Positions 1 through 7,616 of a stretch of 48,576 nucleotides of DNA are shown here, piece after piece. Source of the DNA: Nitrospirota bacterium (lineage in GTDB: Bacteria; Nitrospirota; Thermodesulfovibrionia; Thermodesulfovibrionales; Dissulfurispiraceae). Position 1 is the first letter of the stretch, and each line of letters begins with the position of its first letter. The stretch lies in contig WSNO01000020.1 in NCBI GenBank assembly GCA_009773415.1, positions 1 to 48,576 of the forward strand, in the 5' to 3' direction. Made by a program: the position numbers and the translations under genes. Under the pieces are notes generated by a model. It was not told the DNA's origin. It saw only the letters and a program-made list of their open reading frames with translations, and made no database searches.

Positions 1-257
1 GCCTTTGCCGGAGCTGCGTCCTTCTTGGCGTCCTTCTTCTCTTCAGCCTTTGCCGGAGCTGCGTCCTTCTTGGCGTCCTTTGCCGGAGCCGCGTCCTTCT
101 TGGCGTCCTTCTTGGCGTCCTTCTTGGCGTCCTTCTTCTCTTCAGCCTTTGCCGGAGCTGCGTCCTTCTTGGCGTCCTTTGCATCTGCTGCGAAGCTCAA
201 ACCTGCCATCGAAAGTGCGAAAAGAACTGCGACGACGAGTGCGAGAATCTTCTTCAT
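1..257 (-). CDS. Secreted Lys/Ala/Asp-rich repeat protein, 3' end cut by window edge
   Basis: Read on the minus strand from the ATG at 257, preceded by a strong Shine-Dalgarno GGAGGTGA (273-266). Eighty-five codons are visible and the frame is still open at base 1, so the protein is partial. Residues 1-23 form a clear signal peptide (MKKILALVVAVLFALSMAG then LSFA, with likely cleavage after the SFA). The mature part is low complexity, built from the words KKDA, AAPAKA and EEKKDA, with many Lys, Ala, Asp and Pro and no Cys or aromatic residues. It should be an extended, highly charged periplasmic or secreted protein. I recognise no domain and assign no function. Alanine/lysine-rich exported proteins of this type are common in sulfate reducers and Nitrospirota, but that comparison is from memory. 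The opposite strand is also open here only because of the repeat composition. Confidence 0.85.
   Translation of the reverse strand, partial: MKKILALVVAVLFALSMAGLSFAADAKDAKKDAAPAKAEEKKDAKKDAKKDAKKDAAPAKDAKKDAAPAKAEEKKDAKKDAAPAK
3..190. repeat. Tandem degenerate 12-15 bp coding repeats
   Basis: Within the first gene the 12-mer GCGTCCTTCTTG (plus strand; Ala-Lys-Lys-Asp on the minus strand) recurs many times. It is interleaved with a longer block encoding AAPAKAEEKKD, which appears at 1-45, 46-90 and 142-180 with few changes. Repeats this close to identical at the DNA level suggest recent expansion by slippage or unequal recombination, so copy number probably varies between strains. Confidence 0.8.
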
Positions 258-413: not shown

Positions 414-1508
414 TTATTCCATGTCCTGCATTGGCTTAATGAACATGAAATAGACCATGGTCCAGTTGCCGAGAACCATAAAAACGGTTGCAAGGATACT
501 CTGCAAAGCCAGGCCTGACACACCTGTCAGGGCATGACCGACGGTTCAGCCACCGGCGAGCGCGCCGCCGACACCCATAATCATACCGCCGAAAAAGACG
601 CGCATCAACTCATCCACCTGCTTCGGCGCCGTGAGCTTGAACTCGCTTAGCCCCTTAGCGCTCAGAAAAGCGCCTATCGGAACCCCGATAATATAGAGAG
701 CGCTCCAGGAAATCGCCCCGTAGCCGACGATGCTGAACAACTGGTCATTCTTTGCCATACTGTCGCCCAGCATAAAAAATGTCACCAGTTCCGACAGCGG
801 GCCGGAAAATGAAAGACCGCGGGCGCGTCCGCCCCACTCGTATGAAGTCCACCATGCAATTATAATAATCAGGCCGACCAGCAGTCCGCCGAGCGACCAT
901 GACCAGCCTTTTTTCGGCTGTTTGCCGAGCGGACCGCCCTTCCATACAATGGGAATGATGATCGCCACAATGACCGCGATGAATACCCATTTCAGGTTCG
1001 GTGCACTGAAGAGGTCCCAGAGCGCCGGGTTTGCAATGGCATCATCACCGCTTCCAATAGAAACCTTGTAGCTCTTAATCCACTTCATCACCGGTGCAAG
1101 CGGACCGTGATAGCTCATAATAAGCGTAAAAACAAAGCCGACGGTCGCTATAAAGGCAGCGAACTGTCCTTCACCCTGCTTGTACAGGACGCCGCTTCCG
1201 CATCCGCCCGCCATAACAATGCCGAGGCCGAAAATATAGCCTCCGACGATTGCGGATATCGGTGCGAATGCCTGGCGGGCCAAGCCATCTTCGCCAAGCA
1301 GACCGAAATCTTCAATAAGGTTTGAGCCGATAATCGCTACTCCCAATGCCAACAGCCAAGCCCGTAACAACGTCATGTCGTTTACAAAGATCACGTCTCT
1401 GAACGCTGAGTTCATTCAATAGCGGCCGCGCTGCAGCACAAAGCCAAAAACAAGACCGGTCAACACACCGCTCAGGATGACCATAATGCCGATAGGCTGG
1501 ACTTCCAT
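414..1508 (-). CDS. YeeE/YedE-family sulfur/selenium transporter with two predicted selenocysteines
   Basis: A 364-residue membrane protein read from ATG 1508 (Shine-Dalgarno AGGAGG at 1518-1513) to TAA 416-414, passing two in-frame UGA codons at 1418-1416 (residue 31) and 548-546 (residue 321). Conceptual translation gives GFVLQRGRY-U-MNSAFRD near the N-terminus, MAGGCGSGVLY around Cys103, and AGG-U-TVGHALTG near the C-terminus. These line up with the three cysteine motifs of E. coli YeeE (RGRFC, AGGC, AGGCSIG). In the thiosulfate transporter of this family the three cysteines lie along the substrate path and matter for uptake. Here the first and third are Sec codons while the middle one stays Cys. 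About eight hydrophobic segments are spread along the chain. Both UGAs have SECIS-like hairpins. Stopping at UGA would leave a 30-residue peptide and a headless 289-residue fragment, although coding and family similarity continue through both codons. Substrate (thiosulfate, a related sulfur anion or a selenium compound) is inference. Confidence 0.9.
514..531 (-). promoter_or_regulatory. Candidate bacterial SECIS element after UGA-2
   Basis: Fourteen nt after the second UGA (548-546) comes a perfect 7-bp hairpin, CCUGACA-GGUG-UGUCAGG. The loop begins 22 nt after the UGA and starts with GG, the hallmark of bacterial SECIS apical loops. The coding frame runs through it (TVGHALTGVSGLAL). It is the stronger of the two candidates. 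Confidence 0.75.
1379..1405 (-). promoter_or_regulatory. Candidate bacterial SECIS element after UGA-1
   Basis: Starting 11 nt after the first UGA (1418-1416), the mRNA can fold CAGAGA against UCUUUG (6 bp, one G-U) with apical loop CGUGA. The stem extends below through UU-AA and CG-CG pairs with two single-base bulges. The loop begins 21 nt after the UGA and has G at position 2, as expected for SelB-binding bacterial SECIS hairpins. The element lies inside the coding sequence and does not break the frame. Confidence 0.6.
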
Positions 1509-1535
1509 AGCAACCTCCTGTATGCATATTTCTAT

Positions 1536-1686: not shown

Positions 1687-3504
1687 CTACATTTCGACCC
1701 GCGTCACCACTCCATGAAGCAAATGCGGCGGCATACGATAAAACTGTACGAACGAAGGCGTAAGGCGCTTGATAACGGAAAAAACTTTCCAGATAAACGA
1801 CCGTGTCGAGATATCCTCAACGCCGTAAAAAATGGTTCTCGGAAAGATACTGGCTTCGCGAAAAACCTGCTCCATGTTGGGGATCTCCATATAGCCAATC
1901 TGGATCTCGAAGATGCGCAGGCCGGCAACCTGTTCATCGCGAAAAAACCACGCGATGCCGAAAGGATCATCACGGCGGACCAGCGATACGATGATATTGT
2001 CTTCATACACCACACCATTTTCGAACATGGTATTCACCATATAGGGAGGAACCTTGTCAAGGCCGCGGGAGAAAAAAAGCGCCGTTCCTTCTATGGGGTT
2101 CATATTTTCACGCCGGTTCGCATATTCAGCAAGAAACGGGGCGCGATCCATCGGCCTGAGCCGCTGATACAGACGTTTCTGTCCGCGCGTATACAGCAGG
2201 ATAAGCGCGAAAGGAATTGCTGCAATGATGAGCGACCAGTAGCCGCCGTGCGGAATCTTGTAGATATTGGCGAGAAGATACACAACATTGACGCAAAAGA
2301 CTGCCGCCGACAGGGCGGCGAAAGCGGTTTTCCGTTTCAGCCAGAATATCCAGGTCATGAACAGGCCGGTAAGCGCCATGGTGCCGGTAACTGCAAGCCC
2401 GTAAGCGGCTGCAAGTTTTTCCGACTCCCGAAACTCATACATCACAAACAGCACCGCACACAATAAAAACCAGTTCACAGCGCCGATATATATCTGTGAA
2501 TGCATTTCCTTCGAGGTATATTCGACCTTGAAAATCGGCATTATCCGTGTGGTCATGCTCTGATAGACAATCGAAAACATGCCGCTGATCATCGCTTGCG
2601 ACGCAATGACCGTCGCCAGTATGCTGAGAATGAGAAACGGCACATACAGTAGGGATGCCTGATGATAGATCATCTCAAACAGCACATTCTTCGCCTGCGG
2701 ATTCTGGATGAGATAGGCTGTCTGCCCCATGTAATTCAACAGAAGTGCGGTACAGACAAAATACCAGGCATTCACTATAGGCTTGCGACCGAGATGTCCC
2801 ATGTCGGCATAAAGAGCTTCACCGCCCGTTGCGCAGAGAATCACCGCCGACAGCACGAAAAAGCCGGTCAATCCGTTCTGCATGAGAAAATCGAGCGCGA
2901 AGTAAGGATTCAGAGCCTTGAGCACATGAGGCTCCTGTACTATTGCAAGAATGCCGGAACCGGCAAGCGCGCAAAACCAGATCACCATAATCGGTCCGAA
3001 AGCGCCGCCAACCTTTTCGGTTCCTTTTCGCTGAATCGCAAAAAGAGCTATCGCAATCAACGCTGCTGCAATGACGAGCGCATCAACCGGCGTTTTCTCA
3101 AACCCCGGAATAAGCAGCGCTCCTTCCACTGCAGAAAGAATACTGATGGCAGGCGTAATAACGCCGTCGCCGATGAGCAGTGAAATGCCGATGAATGACA
3201 GCACGGCAACGACGCCGATCCGACGCCCCGGCTTCAGCATGGGAGCAAGAATCTCCTTCAGGACGATAGTGCCGCCCTCCCCCTTTTTGCTGAGACTCAT
3301 GGCAAGCCAGGCATATTCAACAGAGACCAGAATCGTGATTGTCCAGATAATAAGAGAGAGTATGCCGATAAAATGGGCCTCGGATCGTTCGGTCAGCAAG
3401 AAAACGACGGTGAGTGTGTAAATCGGGCTGGTTCCGATATCACCGAAGACGAGCCCGAGCGGCTGCAAAAAAGACTTGATTTTCGACTCAGGGTGATGCG
3501 CCAT
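1687..3504 (-). CDS. kup: Kup-type low-affinity potassium uptake protein
   Basis: 605 residues, close to the E. coli Kup length of about 620. The N-terminus has the Kup signature around LGLVFGDIGTSPIYTL (residues about 16-31). About twelve hydrophobic segments follow to around residue 430, then a soluble C-terminal tail of about 170 residues. Kup proteins bring K+ in, probably with protons, across the cytoplasmic membrane. The start ATG 3504 has GGAGGG about 10 nt upstream. The gene stands downstream of trkA-trkH on the same strand but is separated from trkH by its own promoter, a c-di-AMP riboswitch and a terminator. Its expression is therefore expected to fall when c-di-AMP is high. The stop is TAG. 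Confidence 0.95.
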   Translation of the reverse strand: MAHHPESKIKSFLQPLGLVFGDIGTSPIYTLTVVFLLTERSEAHFIGILSLIIWTITILVSVEYAWLAMSLSKKGEGGTIVLKEILAPMLKPGRRIGVVAVLSFIGISLLIGDGVITPAISILSAVEGALLIPGFEKTPVDALVIAAALIAIALFAIQRKGTEKVGGAFGPIMVIWFCALAGSGILAIVQEPHVLKALNPYFALDFLMQNGLTGFFVLSAVILCATGGEALYADMGHLGRKPIVNAWYFVCTALLLNYMGQTAYLIQNPQAKNVLFEMIYHQASLLYVPFLILSILATVIASQAMISGMFSIVYQSMTTRIMPIFKVEYTSKEMHSQIYIGAVNWFLLCAVLFVMYEFRESEKLAAAYGLAVTGTMALTGLFMTWIFWLKRKTAFAALSAAVFCVNVVYLLANIYKIPHGGYWSLIIAAIPFALILLYTRGQKRLYQRLRPMDRAPFLAEYANRRENMNPIEGTALFFSRGLDKVPPYMVNTMFENGVVYEDNIIVSLVRRDDPFGIAWFFRDEQVAGLRIFEIQIGYMEIPNMEQVFREASIFPRTIFYGVEDISTRSFIWKVFSVIKRLTPSFVQFYRMPPHLLHGVVTRVEM

Positions 3505-3569: not shown

Positions 3570-3700
3570 CCTGTCCAGTGCCTTTCAAATGCCTGCGAGG
3601 TTAGCTGGCGGGCTCGGGCTTGAAAGTACCCTATCCTTTACGGAATACGCCCCAACAAACTGGGTCCCCCGCATCCGCCCGTCGGGCGAATCTTGGCTCA
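3570..3700 (-). promoter_or_regulatory. c-di-AMP riboswitch (ydaO/yuaA class) upstream of kup
   Basis: The minus strand between trkH and kup carries the conserved ydaO-class core. It includes CAGCUAACCUCGCAGGC (3607-3591), the upstream GGGUACUUUCA and CCCGAGCCCG segments, and GGGGGACCCA with UUGGGGCGUAUUCC further 5'. This class binds cyclic di-AMP, usually with two ligand molecules, and typically controls K+ transporter and cell-wall genes. Binding normally promotes termination, and a strong terminator follows at 3560-3534. Known K+ transporter linkage plus the match to the core makes the call firm; exact helix boundaries are not resolved by eye. Confidence 0.88.
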
Positions 3701-3705
3701 TTTTT

Positions 3706-3735
3706 ACGCTACTCCTGCTCTGTGAGATTTGTCAA
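3706..3735 (-). promoter_or_regulatory. Probable sigma-70-type promoter of the kup riboswitch transcript
   Basis: TTGACA (3735-3730), an 18-nt spacer, then TAGCGT (3711-3706), lying directly after the trkH stop. Transcription would begin near 3699, just before the aptamer. The -10 is weak. Confidence 0.5.
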
Positions 3736-5207: not shown

Positions 5208-6545
5208 CTAAGCAAGCATCTGCTCTATGGAGCGGATTGACTCCCGCAGCACAAAGACAATGACCTTGTCGTCCGGCGCAACCGCGTCGTTGCCTCCCGG
5301 AATGATGACCAGCGGGCCGCGGATAATAGCCCCGATAACACAGCCGGAGGGGAGTCTGAGATCTTTCAGCCTGACGCCGATTATCTGTGAGTTCTTTCCT
5401 ACCCGTGTCTCGAGGATTTCCGCGCGGCCATCAGCTATCGCGGTCAGTGAGAGAACCTCGCCTTGCCTGACATAGCGGAGAATAGAGCTTGCCGTAAGGA
5501 GCCGAGGACTCAGAACACTGTGCAGGCCGAGGCCATGCGCAACCGACACATAGTCGGTCCGGTTCACGACTGCTATCGTCTTGCTTACCCCCAGCTTTTT
5601 GGCAAGCAGACAGGCAATGATATTCAGCTCGTCATTATTGGTCACCGAGATGTAGACATCCGTAGCGGCTATATTTTCATCAGAGAGCATCCGCTGCTCA
5701 GATCCGTCTCCATACAGCACGATTGCCCGGTGCAGCTGCTTGCTCAAATATTTGCACCGCTCAAGGTCCGTATCGATAATTTTTATCTCGACCGTTCGTT
5801 CCAGGGCAGCCGCAACAGCATATCCTATGCGGCCTCCTCCATTTATGATGACCCTGCGTACCGGCTGCATGTCGATTCCAAGCATGGCTACGGTGGCAGC
5901 AATCAGATCCCGCGGCACCGGAAGGTATACAATATCGCCCGGCTGCAGCACATCGTTTCCTCCGGGAATGAATATTTCGTCACCGCGCTCAACCAGACCG
6001 AACAGCAAGCGGTGACCGACAGAGGGCACCTCTTTCAGCGACTTTCCGGCTAAGGGAGAGGATTCCGGCAGCTTGCACCCGACTACGTAGACCAGCCCGT
6101 CTTCAAATGATTCAATAGTAGACGCAAACGGAGCCCGCAAAAGACGCGTGACTGCTTCGGCAGATTCATATTCAGGATTGATGGCCGGATTGATATCAAG
6201 ATTTTCCCTGCTGAGCAACTGCTTGTTGCCGAAATGGTCGGGATTTCTGATCCTGGCTATGCGCCGGGGAACATTAAACATCGTTCTCGCCAGCAGACAG
6301 GCAATCATGTTCGCCTCATCGCTGTCGGTAACCGCCAGCACCATATCAGCCCGATCGGCACCTGCTACGCGCAAGACCTCTGAGTCGCTGACCTCGCCCT
6401 CAAGTATTGCAACGTCAATATCCTCGGCAAGGCGGTTCAGCTTGCTTTTATCACGGTCGATGACGATGACATCCTGCGATTCCATGGAAAGGTATCGAGC
6501 AATCTGATAGCCGACTTCACCGGCTCCAAGTATAATCACACGCAC
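5208..6545 (-). CDS. trkA: TrkA, nucleotide-binding gating subunit of the Trk potassium system
   Basis: 445 residues with two tandem RCK units. The first Rossmann fold opens with VIILGAGEVGYQIARYL (GxGxxG at residues 7-12) and the second with VIINGGGRIGYAVAAAL near residue 230. Each is followed by an RCK-C domain (about 140-215 and 365-445). TrkA binds NAD(H)/ATP and regulates TrkH. The start ATG 6545 has AAGGAG 5 nt upstream. It is the first gene of trkA-trkH. A possible -10 (TACAAT, 6595-6590) and a structured upstream region suggest its own promoter, separate from the uspA gene before it. Confidence 0.95.
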   Translation of the reverse strand: MRVIILGAGEVGYQIARYLSMESQDVIVIDRDKSKLNRLAEDIDVAILEGEVSDSEVLRVAGADRADMVLAVTDSDEANMIACLLARTMFNVPRRIARIRNPDHFGNKQLLSRENLDINPAINPEYESAEAVTRLLRAPFASTIESFEDGLVYVVGCKLPESSPLAGKSLKEVPSVGHRLLFGLVERGDEIFIPGGNDVLQPGDIVYLPVPRDLIAATVAMLGIDMQPVRRVIINGGGRIGYAVAAALERTVEIKIIDTDLERCKYLSKQLHRAIVLYGDGSEQRMLSDENIAATDVYISVTNNDELNIIACLLAKKLGVSKTIAVVNRTDYVSVAHGLGLHSVLSPRLLTASSILRYVRQGEVLSLTAIADGRAEILETRVGKNSQIIGVRLKDLRLPSGCVIGAIIRGPLVIIPGGNDAVAPDDKVIVFVLRESIRSIEQMLA

Positions 6546-6679
6546 ATATATCTCCTTATCACACGGGGCAGAAAGTCAAAAAGCTTTTTATTGTATCAAA
6601 AAAAAGCGGGCGATTGCAGTGATTACGCTTCAGTCCGAAGCGCGGTCGATCGGCACTCCCCTGCAAGCCTCGCCAATCA

Positions 6680-6754
6680 CCTGCCCCGCTGACTATCCGG
6701 CACAGGTGAGCAGCCTGCAGGATCCACAATATTTTTGGCTGTCAGCGGGGCAGG
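6680..6754. repeat. Long-range 14-bp inverted repeat in the uspA-trkA intergenic region
   Basis: CCTGCCCCGCTGAC (6680-6693) and its exact reverse complement (6741-6754) flank 47 bp that hold further small complementary words. A separate hairpin CGCTTC-GGACT-GAAGCG lies nearby on the minus strand, ending about 20 nt before a run of eight T upstream of trkA. It could be the uspA terminator or a structured leader of trkA. I do not recognise a known riboswitch class in it. Confidence 0.6.
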
Positions 6755-6779
6755 AAACAAATGATTCATAGCACGCTCG

Positions 6780-7616
6780 TCACCTGATAATTAATACGGA
6801 ACAGGGCGCAAGTGCAACAATTTTTTCTGACACGCTTCCCATGAGGATACGCCTGAGTCCAGTCCTGCCGATACGTCCCACAACAATGAAATCAGCGTCT
6901 TCACGACTCGCCGCTTCAACAATCTCATGATAGGGACGCCCGACAACTGCAAGGGGAGTCACTTTCAGTCCCTGCGCTTCACCAAGTTTTCTCACACGCT
7001 CAACATTTTCCTCAGCCCATTTCTTCCGGTCCTGCGTACGGGCAACGCACATGGCAATCAGATTCCTTACCTTGTCGCACCGTTTTGCCATACTGATTGC
7101 CTCAGCCTCAGCCAGGCGCGCATGCTCGGATCCATCGGTGGCAATCAGAATCTGCTCACCACGGATTTCTGCATCCTTCGGCACAATAAGAACCTTGCAG
7201 GGGGCATATGCGATAACACGCTCCGTCACGCTTCCCATGAGAATCTTTCTGAGTCCGGTTCGGCCTCGGCGTCCCATTATGATGACGTCGACCTCGAGTC
7301 TCTTTGCCTCTTCGATAATCGCCTCATATGGCTTGTTGGTTCTTCGTATAACGGAACCGCACTCAACATTTTGATGGGTGCAGCACTCCCGGATACGGTC
7401 GAAATGGTCGCGGGCCCTGAACTCCATCAGCTCAACCTGGGCCTGACCTTCCGTCTCAAACTCGGGGTTCACTTCAAGCACCTGCATGACCGTCACATCA
7501 ATACCACAGGAGCTTGCTATAAACATTGCCTCGCGCTCGGCGCCGCGGCTGTATTCAGAACCATCGGTTGCAAGCATGATTCTCTTGATCTCTCCCATCA
7601 GATGCCGTCTGTGCAT
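6780..7616 (-). CDS. Tandem universal stress protein (two UspA domains)
   Basis: 278 residues from ATG 7616, chosen because GGAGG lies 9 nt upstream and the start falls 2 nt after the previous stop. Longer upstream frames have no family similarity. Two Usp domains are visible: residues 7-145 (RIMLATDGSEYS to APCKVLIV) and about 150-278 (ILIATDGSEHA to APCSVLIIR). Each ends with the ATP-binding pattern G-x2-G-x9-G-S (GRRGRTGLRKILMGS; GRIGRTGLRRILMGS), so both are of the ATP-binding type. Usp proteins are cytoplasmic and support survival under stress or starvation. It is the last gene of CBS-TauE-small membrane protein-uspA, which suggests a link to sulfur anion or membrane stress. Confidence 0.92.
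   Translation of the reverse strand: MHRRHLMGEIKRIMLATDGSEYSRGAEREAMFIASSCGIDVTVMQVLEVNPEFETEGQAQVELMEFRARDHFDRIRECCTHQNVECGSVIRRTNKPYEAIIEEAKRLEVDVIIMGRRGRTGLRKILMGSVTERVIAYAPCKVLIVPKDAEIRGEQILIATDGSEHARLAEAEAISMAKRCDKVRNLIAMCVARTQDRKKWAEENVERVRKLGEAQGLKVTPLAVVGRPYHEIVEAASREDADFIVVGRIGRTGLRRILMGSVSEKIVALAPCSVLIIR

Follow-up and report, generated by a model that had tools for sequence, protein, structure and literature searches.

YeeE/TsuA transporters, represented by S. thermophila YeeE (StYeeE; 6LEO/6LEP/8K1R) and E. coli TsuA, are the closest described relatives of the protein reported here. In StYeeE, the transport path from outside to inside runs over C293, then C91, and finally C22, with spacings of 8.6 and 6.7 Å, and C22 faces the TusA-like partner YeeD (PMC11073785). 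Transport by this all-cysteine form has been put down to S-H...S hydrogen bonding with thiosulfate (PMC11073785). At 6.7-8.6 Å, the gaps between the cysteines are too wide for a direct hand-over unless there is movement or a carrier (PMC11073785, PMC11582611). SoxT1 from Hyphomicrobium denitrificans is another YeeE-like protein with three path residues, all cysteines and all needed. For SoxT1A, thiosulfate was excluded and sulfane sulfur was proposed instead, with sulfane sulfur or polysulfide under discussion and the cysteine spacing an obstacle to direct transfer (PMC11582611). A yeeE-dsrEFH type II cluster (formerly YTD), found in Nitrospirota and Desulfobacterota, was proposed to import sulfane sulfur into TusA, DsrEFH, and DsrC, and the paper describing it mentions neither selenium nor UGA (PMC13293266).

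The 'YeeE/YedE family' has already been listed as a predicted selenoprotein family (PMC9312934, PMC13188914). The newer listing gives a single selenocysteine (Sec, U), the motif GUxSG, and WP_012471001.1 as an example, and YeeE is not named in the main text of two of the papers cited for it. This example may be a half-size PmpA-type protein (GUPSG) or may carry its Sec in the middle-cysteine motif.

The gene described here lies in a stretch of 48,576 nucleotides from a Nitrospirota bacterium (GCA_009773415.1, contig WSNO01000020.1), called the window below. It very likely encodes a full-length, double-Sec sulfur transporter of the inner membrane, UGA being read as selenocysteine at residues 31 and 321, each with its own downstream hairpin. 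The initial annotation had proposed such a double selenoprotein, and the proposal is supported by the two UGAs being conserved across 16 orthologues, by cysteine at these positions in 46 homologues, by selection outside the UGAs, by two covarying hairpins, and by the Sec machinery of the genome. Selenium incorporation itself is inferred from sequence alone, without proteomic or selenium-labelling evidence. The protein shares its Pfam family and a predicted Sec with the listed single-Sec form, but it has two Sec residues, and its sites YUMNS and GUTVG do not match GUxSG. The earlier claim that no YeeE selenoprotein had been described failed in part, single-Sec YeeE/YedE proteins being already listed, whereas its narrower part held. 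Indeed, the literature searched, supplements and subscription articles excepted, yielded neither a double-Sec YeeE nor a selenoproteome of this lineage. What is likely to be new is therefore the form with two Sec residues, along with its positions and its pair of recoding elements.

Reading frame, family and fold

Positions 417-1508 of the minus strand encode a read-through protein of 364 residues, two of which (31 and 321) correspond to in-frame UGAs (Table 1). Translation confirmed the frame that had been claimed, from a well-placed ATG preceded by AGGAGG to a terminal TAA. The prediction that standard calling would keep only the middle piece was also borne out, as only 546-1415 (289 aa) was recovered by standard ORF calling.

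Table 1. Features of the yeeE locus, in window coordinates
Feature	Position	Strand	Description and basis
Small secreted protein with KKDA repeats	1..257	-	Downstream, cut by contig end; sequence, gene order of relatives
Double-Sec YeeE-family transporter gene (predicted)	414..1508	-	364 codons + TAA; translation, PF04143 match, orthologues, AlphaFold2 model
U321 SECIS-like hairpin	514..531	-	6-7 bp, apical loop GGUG; covariation, RNAalifold
UGA codon 321, predicted Sec321	546..548	-	Equivalent of StYeeE Cys293, periplasmic entry; translation, homologue alignment, StYeeE alignment, PMC11073785
Cys103 codon	1200..1202	-	Retained middle cysteine (StYeeE Cys91); homologue and StYeeE alignments
U31 SECIS-like hairpin	1379..1405	-	10 bp with 2-nt bulge, apical loop CGUGA; covariation, RNAalifold
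UGA codon 31, predicted Sec31	1416..1418	-	Equivalent of StYeeE Cys22, cytoplasmic exit, adjoining TusA-like partner; translation, homologue alignment, StYeeE alignment, PMC11073785
AGGAGG, Shine-Dalgarno-like	1514..1519	-	5' of ATG at 1508; sequence
Kup-like K+ transporter gene	1687..3504	-	Upstream neighbour; ORF calling; syntenic with relatives having dsrEFH-like genes between kup and yeeE

The read-through product meets PF04143 (Sulf_transp, YeeE/YedE) over residues 27-350 with 235.5 bits against a curated cut-off of 27 (E 1.3e-69). The more specific models are not reached, neither those of TsuA (NF052577, 250.7 bits vs 400; NF041049, 161.5 vs 645) nor those of selenium-related YedE (TIGR04112, 44.5 vs 200; NF033796, 94.1 vs 350). 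TIGR04112 YedE is thus a distant relative, matching residues 12-127 far below the cut-off, and unlike the window protein it is described with cysteines and beside selenium genes.

By profile alignment with S. thermophila YeeE (6LEO), C22, C91, and C293 correspond to residues 31, 103, and 321. A chalcogen residue is therefore present at all three path-cysteine positions of TsuA, two of them as predicted Sec (U31/C103/U321). The claim that both UGAs fall on conserved YeeE cysteines, with the third one kept, had been made with reference to E. coli YeeE and held when checked on the solved StYeeE instead. The residue kept as Cys is the equivalent of the one replaced in a solved C91A mutant of YeeE, the entry of which is titled 'inactive'.

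An AlphaFold2 model built on 46 homologues, with Cys in place of Sec, reached a pLDDT of 90.7 and a pTM of 0.88, an earlier run on 16 close sequences (pLDDT 54) having been discarded. It matches four YeeE crystal entries with Z of 43-46 over 311-322 residues (rmsd 1.6-2.1 Å) and 6LEO with a TM of 0.83/0.92. In the model, residues 31, 103, and 321 each lie in a break ahead of a short helix, as expected from the internal repeat of the family. The protein thus shares with YeeE/TsuA the fold and the places of the three path residues, but its entry and exit cysteines are replaced by predicted Sec, its scores stay below the TsuA equivalog cut-offs, and no TsuB/YeeD gene is adjacent in the window.

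Conservation of the UGA codons and recoding hairpins

A homologue search over 60 relatives, and then over 395 genomes of the phylum Nitrospirota, identified 16 orthologues (window gene included) in which UGA occurs at both codons and nowhere else ahead of the stop. The 15 others are 64-91% identical to the window gene, and the set covers 10 genera in two families of Thermodesulfovibrionales, from 16 independent assemblies. All named relatives are Nitrospirota MAGs or contigs, for the most part from Thermodesulfovibrionales, except for a 3.4-kb contig in a MAG labelled Bacteroidetes. Among 81 aligned homologues, the path residues are C/C/C in 46, U/C/U in 16, C/C/U in 15, and U/C/D in two, the remaining two being one truncated sequence and one with unknown bases. 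UGA in homologues is confined to positions 31 and 321 or to the C-terminal stop at 359-364, and occurs nowhere else in the aligned body. For pairs with unsaturated dS, dN/dS is 0-0.10 over codons 2-30 and 0.03-0.09 over codons 322-362. Purifying selection thus acts both before U31 and after U321, so that both outer parts must be translated and needed.

A maximum-likelihood tree of 74 rows places the double-Sec proteins in a single clade (99/98), the sister clade of which is all-Cys (100/99). The window's genome holds one member of the former and one all-Cys paralogue, 62% identical. A lone Sec at the entry site (C/C/U) is found in 15 homologues (L049, L050, L051, L053, L062, L064, L067, L126, L127, L129, L130, L146-L148, and L150) scattered over several separate places in the tree, and Cys/Sec exchange at this site has therefore occurred repeatedly. 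One of them, L126 (genome G323, contig C113), stands inside the double-Sec clade; it has UGA and an intact hairpin at 321, and its Cys31 is an apparent reversion. No selA was found in its genome, which is 95% complete; this could reflect an absent contig, a binning error, or a selenoprotein that is being lost.

Both hairpins were recovered unprompted by RNAalifold. Over 12 distinct sequences, 96.7% of the pairs in the U31 helix are formed, and two of the pairs show compensatory changes. For the U321 helix, the figure is 94.8% over 22 sequences drawn from both double- and single-Sec forms, with a GGUG or GGUA loop and double-sided changes at two pairs (G-C to C-G and C-G to U-A). When either helix was slid by 1-3 columns as a control, pairing dropped to 58% or less. 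In Cys homologues, the same pairs are formed at 36% for 321 and at 70% for 31, the latter value being due to conservation of the encoded peptide FRDVIF. Bacterial SECIS elements are expected to have a loop that contains GU and begins some 20-21 nt beyond the UGA. Here, the apical loops begin about 20-21 nt past each UGA and most of them contain GU; at sequence level, the bacterial criterion of a hairpin just 3' of the UGA with a G in the apical loop is met at both sites.

Synonymous conservation differs between the two elements. All 15 double-Sec genes compared share codons 37-41 (AGA GAC GUG AUC UUU), whereas Cys homologues vary there. At columns where the amino acid is invariant, double-Sec genes share the codon in 80% of pairs within columns 32-45 vs 44% overall, a value above every one of 20,000 random draws. 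Around U321, the constraint is weak over the block of columns as a whole (0.50 vs 0.44), with only L327, T328, and G329 standing out, and the case for recoding at this site rests on covariation. Folding energies of single sequences compared with shuffles were no better for the 57 nt from UGA31 (mean z -0.2) and only mildly better for UGA321 (-1.4). The evidence for the recoding elements is therefore covariation and synonymous conservation, not folding energy.

The machinery for Sec insertion had been named as a check on the double-Sec reading, and it is complete, all four sel genes being present in the window's genome (2.46 Mb, 61 contigs, 100% complete). This includes selA on contig C7 (614 bits), selB on C11 (345 bits vs cut-off 242), the tRNA-Sec gene selC on C54 (Rfam 69 bits vs cut-off 47; ARAGORN call SeC tca), and selD at C59:99593-100507 (333 bits). 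The presence of selA across genomes is uninformative with respect to the Sec state of YeeE, as it is found in 62 of 66 genomes whatever their YeeE. The selD gene contains one in-frame TGA and is probably itself a selenoprotein gene.

Neighbouring genes and rival explanations

In 7 of the 16 orthologues, small DsrE-, DsrF-, and DsrH-like genes lie directly upstream on the same strand, mostly between kup and yeeE, and an eighth has the DsrF-like gene only. They are inferred to be DsrEFH type II from size, order, and a sub-threshold DsrE match (16.8 bits in Pfam, below the cut-off of 22.7). Several all-Cys relatives, some of another class in the phylum, carry the same set, and these neighbours are therefore inferred to be likely ancestral. 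The arrangement resembles the dsrEFH type II cluster, in which such genes stand beside yeeE in Nitrospirota (PMC13293266), but it differs in the window: dsrE/F/H-like genes are absent beside the gene, and a search of the genome, run without positive control, returned no DsrE-like gene. No TusA gene occurs on the yeeE contig (C46), which ends 413 bases past the gene; four TusA genes are located elsewhere in the genome. The upstream neighbour encodes a protein which we take to be Kup. A c-di-AMP riboswitch (ydaO/yuaA; 78.7 bits) is found directly upstream of this kup-like gene, at window positions 3575-3708 of the minus strand.

In 12 of the 16 orthologues, yeeE is followed by a gene for an ExtJ-like secreted protein, and the copy scanned against NCBIfam (L133, 9892-10164) scored 78 bits vs a cut-off of 52.5. 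The listed copies end in EGC, which makes a role as periplasmic carrier or partner of YeeE conceivable, although this remains speculation. In the window, the KKDA-repeat protein may occupy the place that the ExtJ-like protein has in most orthologues, an equivalence inferred from position and signal peptide. Weak Pfam matches link the ExtJ-like protein with myosin/KOW barrels; they are taken to be due to chance or to a small barrel in common, and a relationship was rejected.

A decaying or misassembled gene, in which both UGAs would be real stops, is suggested by the two in-frame stops themselves, by standard calling keeping the middle piece alone, and by L126, with its UGA at 321 in a genome where selA was not found. 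It is all but excluded by the recurrence of the same two codons, without any other UGA, in 16 assemblies that are independent of one another and cover 10 genera, and by the selection on both outer parts and the conserved hairpins. Close relatives with disrupted frames and neither Cys nor Sec would have pointed to a pseudogene according to the initial annotation; they have Cys or Sec at both positions. If UGA had been reassigned in this genome (to Trp or Gly) or were read through generally, its passage in yeeE would also be explained. This explanation can be ruled out too, since UGA ends 14 of the 39 rough ORFs in the window, including the truncated middle piece of the yeeE gene itself, and is the terminal stop of three double-Sec orthologues, in line with the earlier statement that UGA is otherwise a normal stop here. 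Moreover, internal UGA is restricted to positions that are Cys in homologues, and tRNA-Sec and selAB are present.

The main functional rival is a YedE-like selenium transporter moving selenide or another selenium compound; Sec would then be a ligand that matches the cargo, or its read-through a sensor of selenium status. In its favour, TIGR04112 YedE is linked to selenium metabolism (PMC5322559), ExtJ belongs to a selenite/tellurite reduction operon, its relative being the frequent downstream neighbour, and the all-Cys paralogue could substitute under selenium scarcity. It is nevertheless unlikely, as the YedE models are missed by a wide margin, the closest solved relatives bind thiosulfate, and the ancestral neighbours are dsrEFH-like sulfur transferases; the function of ExtJ itself is unknown, and no selenium-metabolism gene is adjacent in the window. 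Conditional truncation supposes that the UGAs act as a selenium switch and that, without selenium, the 289-residue protein is made from the Met after UGA31. An AUG directly follows UGA31 in all 16 genes, but most Cys homologues also have Met there (RYCMNSAF or similar), and this residue is thus conserved as protein. Since the preceding sequence (CGCGGCCGCTATTGA) has no Shine-Dalgarno and only one of the three path residues would remain in the middle piece, truncation is very unlikely.

Putative sulfur relay and related forms

Under the double-Sec reading, Sec321 at the periplasmic mouth would capture a sulfane-sulfur compound (thiosulfate, polysulfide, or carrier-borne sulfur), Cys103 would relay the sulfur onward as the middle thiol, and Sec31 at the cytoplasmic exit would deliver it to a TusA- or DsrEFH-type acceptor. 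With a pKa near 5.2, Sec is deprotonated at neutral pH; it is a strong nucleophile and a poor hydrogen-bond donor, which lends itself to attacking S-S bonds and to being released easily. In the double-Sec form, two of the three residues on which a solved transporter depends are naturally swapped for one unable to donate, at neutral pH, the hydrogen bonds that the published model requires. Because Sec is a selenolate at this pH, an S-H...S hydrogen-bond relay is unlikely at two of the three stations. A buried environment could shift the pKa, however, and a covalent relay therefore stays an inference only.

The altered pKa and reactivity toward sulfane sulfur or selenide that had been suggested are taken up here as an inference. 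The favoured chemistry is nucleophilic: sulfane sulfur would be relayed covalently, or at least by anion attack, via Se-S intermediates. The odds for this relay are slightly below even, and the substrate and direction of transport are inferred as well. A bolder reading, at similar odds, would make transport in the YeeE family a covalent relay, not a hydrogen-bond relay of thiosulfate, here of the selenolate-thiolate-selenolate type with Sec at both faces. The natural C/C/C, C/C/U, U/C/U, and U/C/D forms make the disputed mechanism (hydrogen-bond thiosulfate relay vs sulfane-sulfur transfer) directly testable. Most selenoproteins are redox enzymes, and Sec lining a membrane transport path, with two in one chain, is unusual. 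Such transporters are trimmed by standard annotation to the 289-residue middle piece.

Other YeeE-type genes with in-frame UGA were observed. In a distant YeeE-like subfamily (28-30% identity), represented by L082 (3998-4957, minus strand) and L083 (3992-4954, plus strand), UGA stands at the Cys22 position and Asp at the Cys293 position. The plasmid collection held no close relative of YeeE or of the half-size protein described next. In the window's genome, contig C53 (33.8-34.9 kb) carries a half-size pair made of a PmpB-like protein of 175 aa (GYC) and a PmpA-like protein with an in-frame UGA (LADGUPSGHG). The pair adjoins NifX-like and DUF134-like genes, and related loci are L022 (about 5813-6950), L003, and L004. 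It constitutes a second Sec-containing YeeE-type system in this genome and fits the published GUxSG motif.
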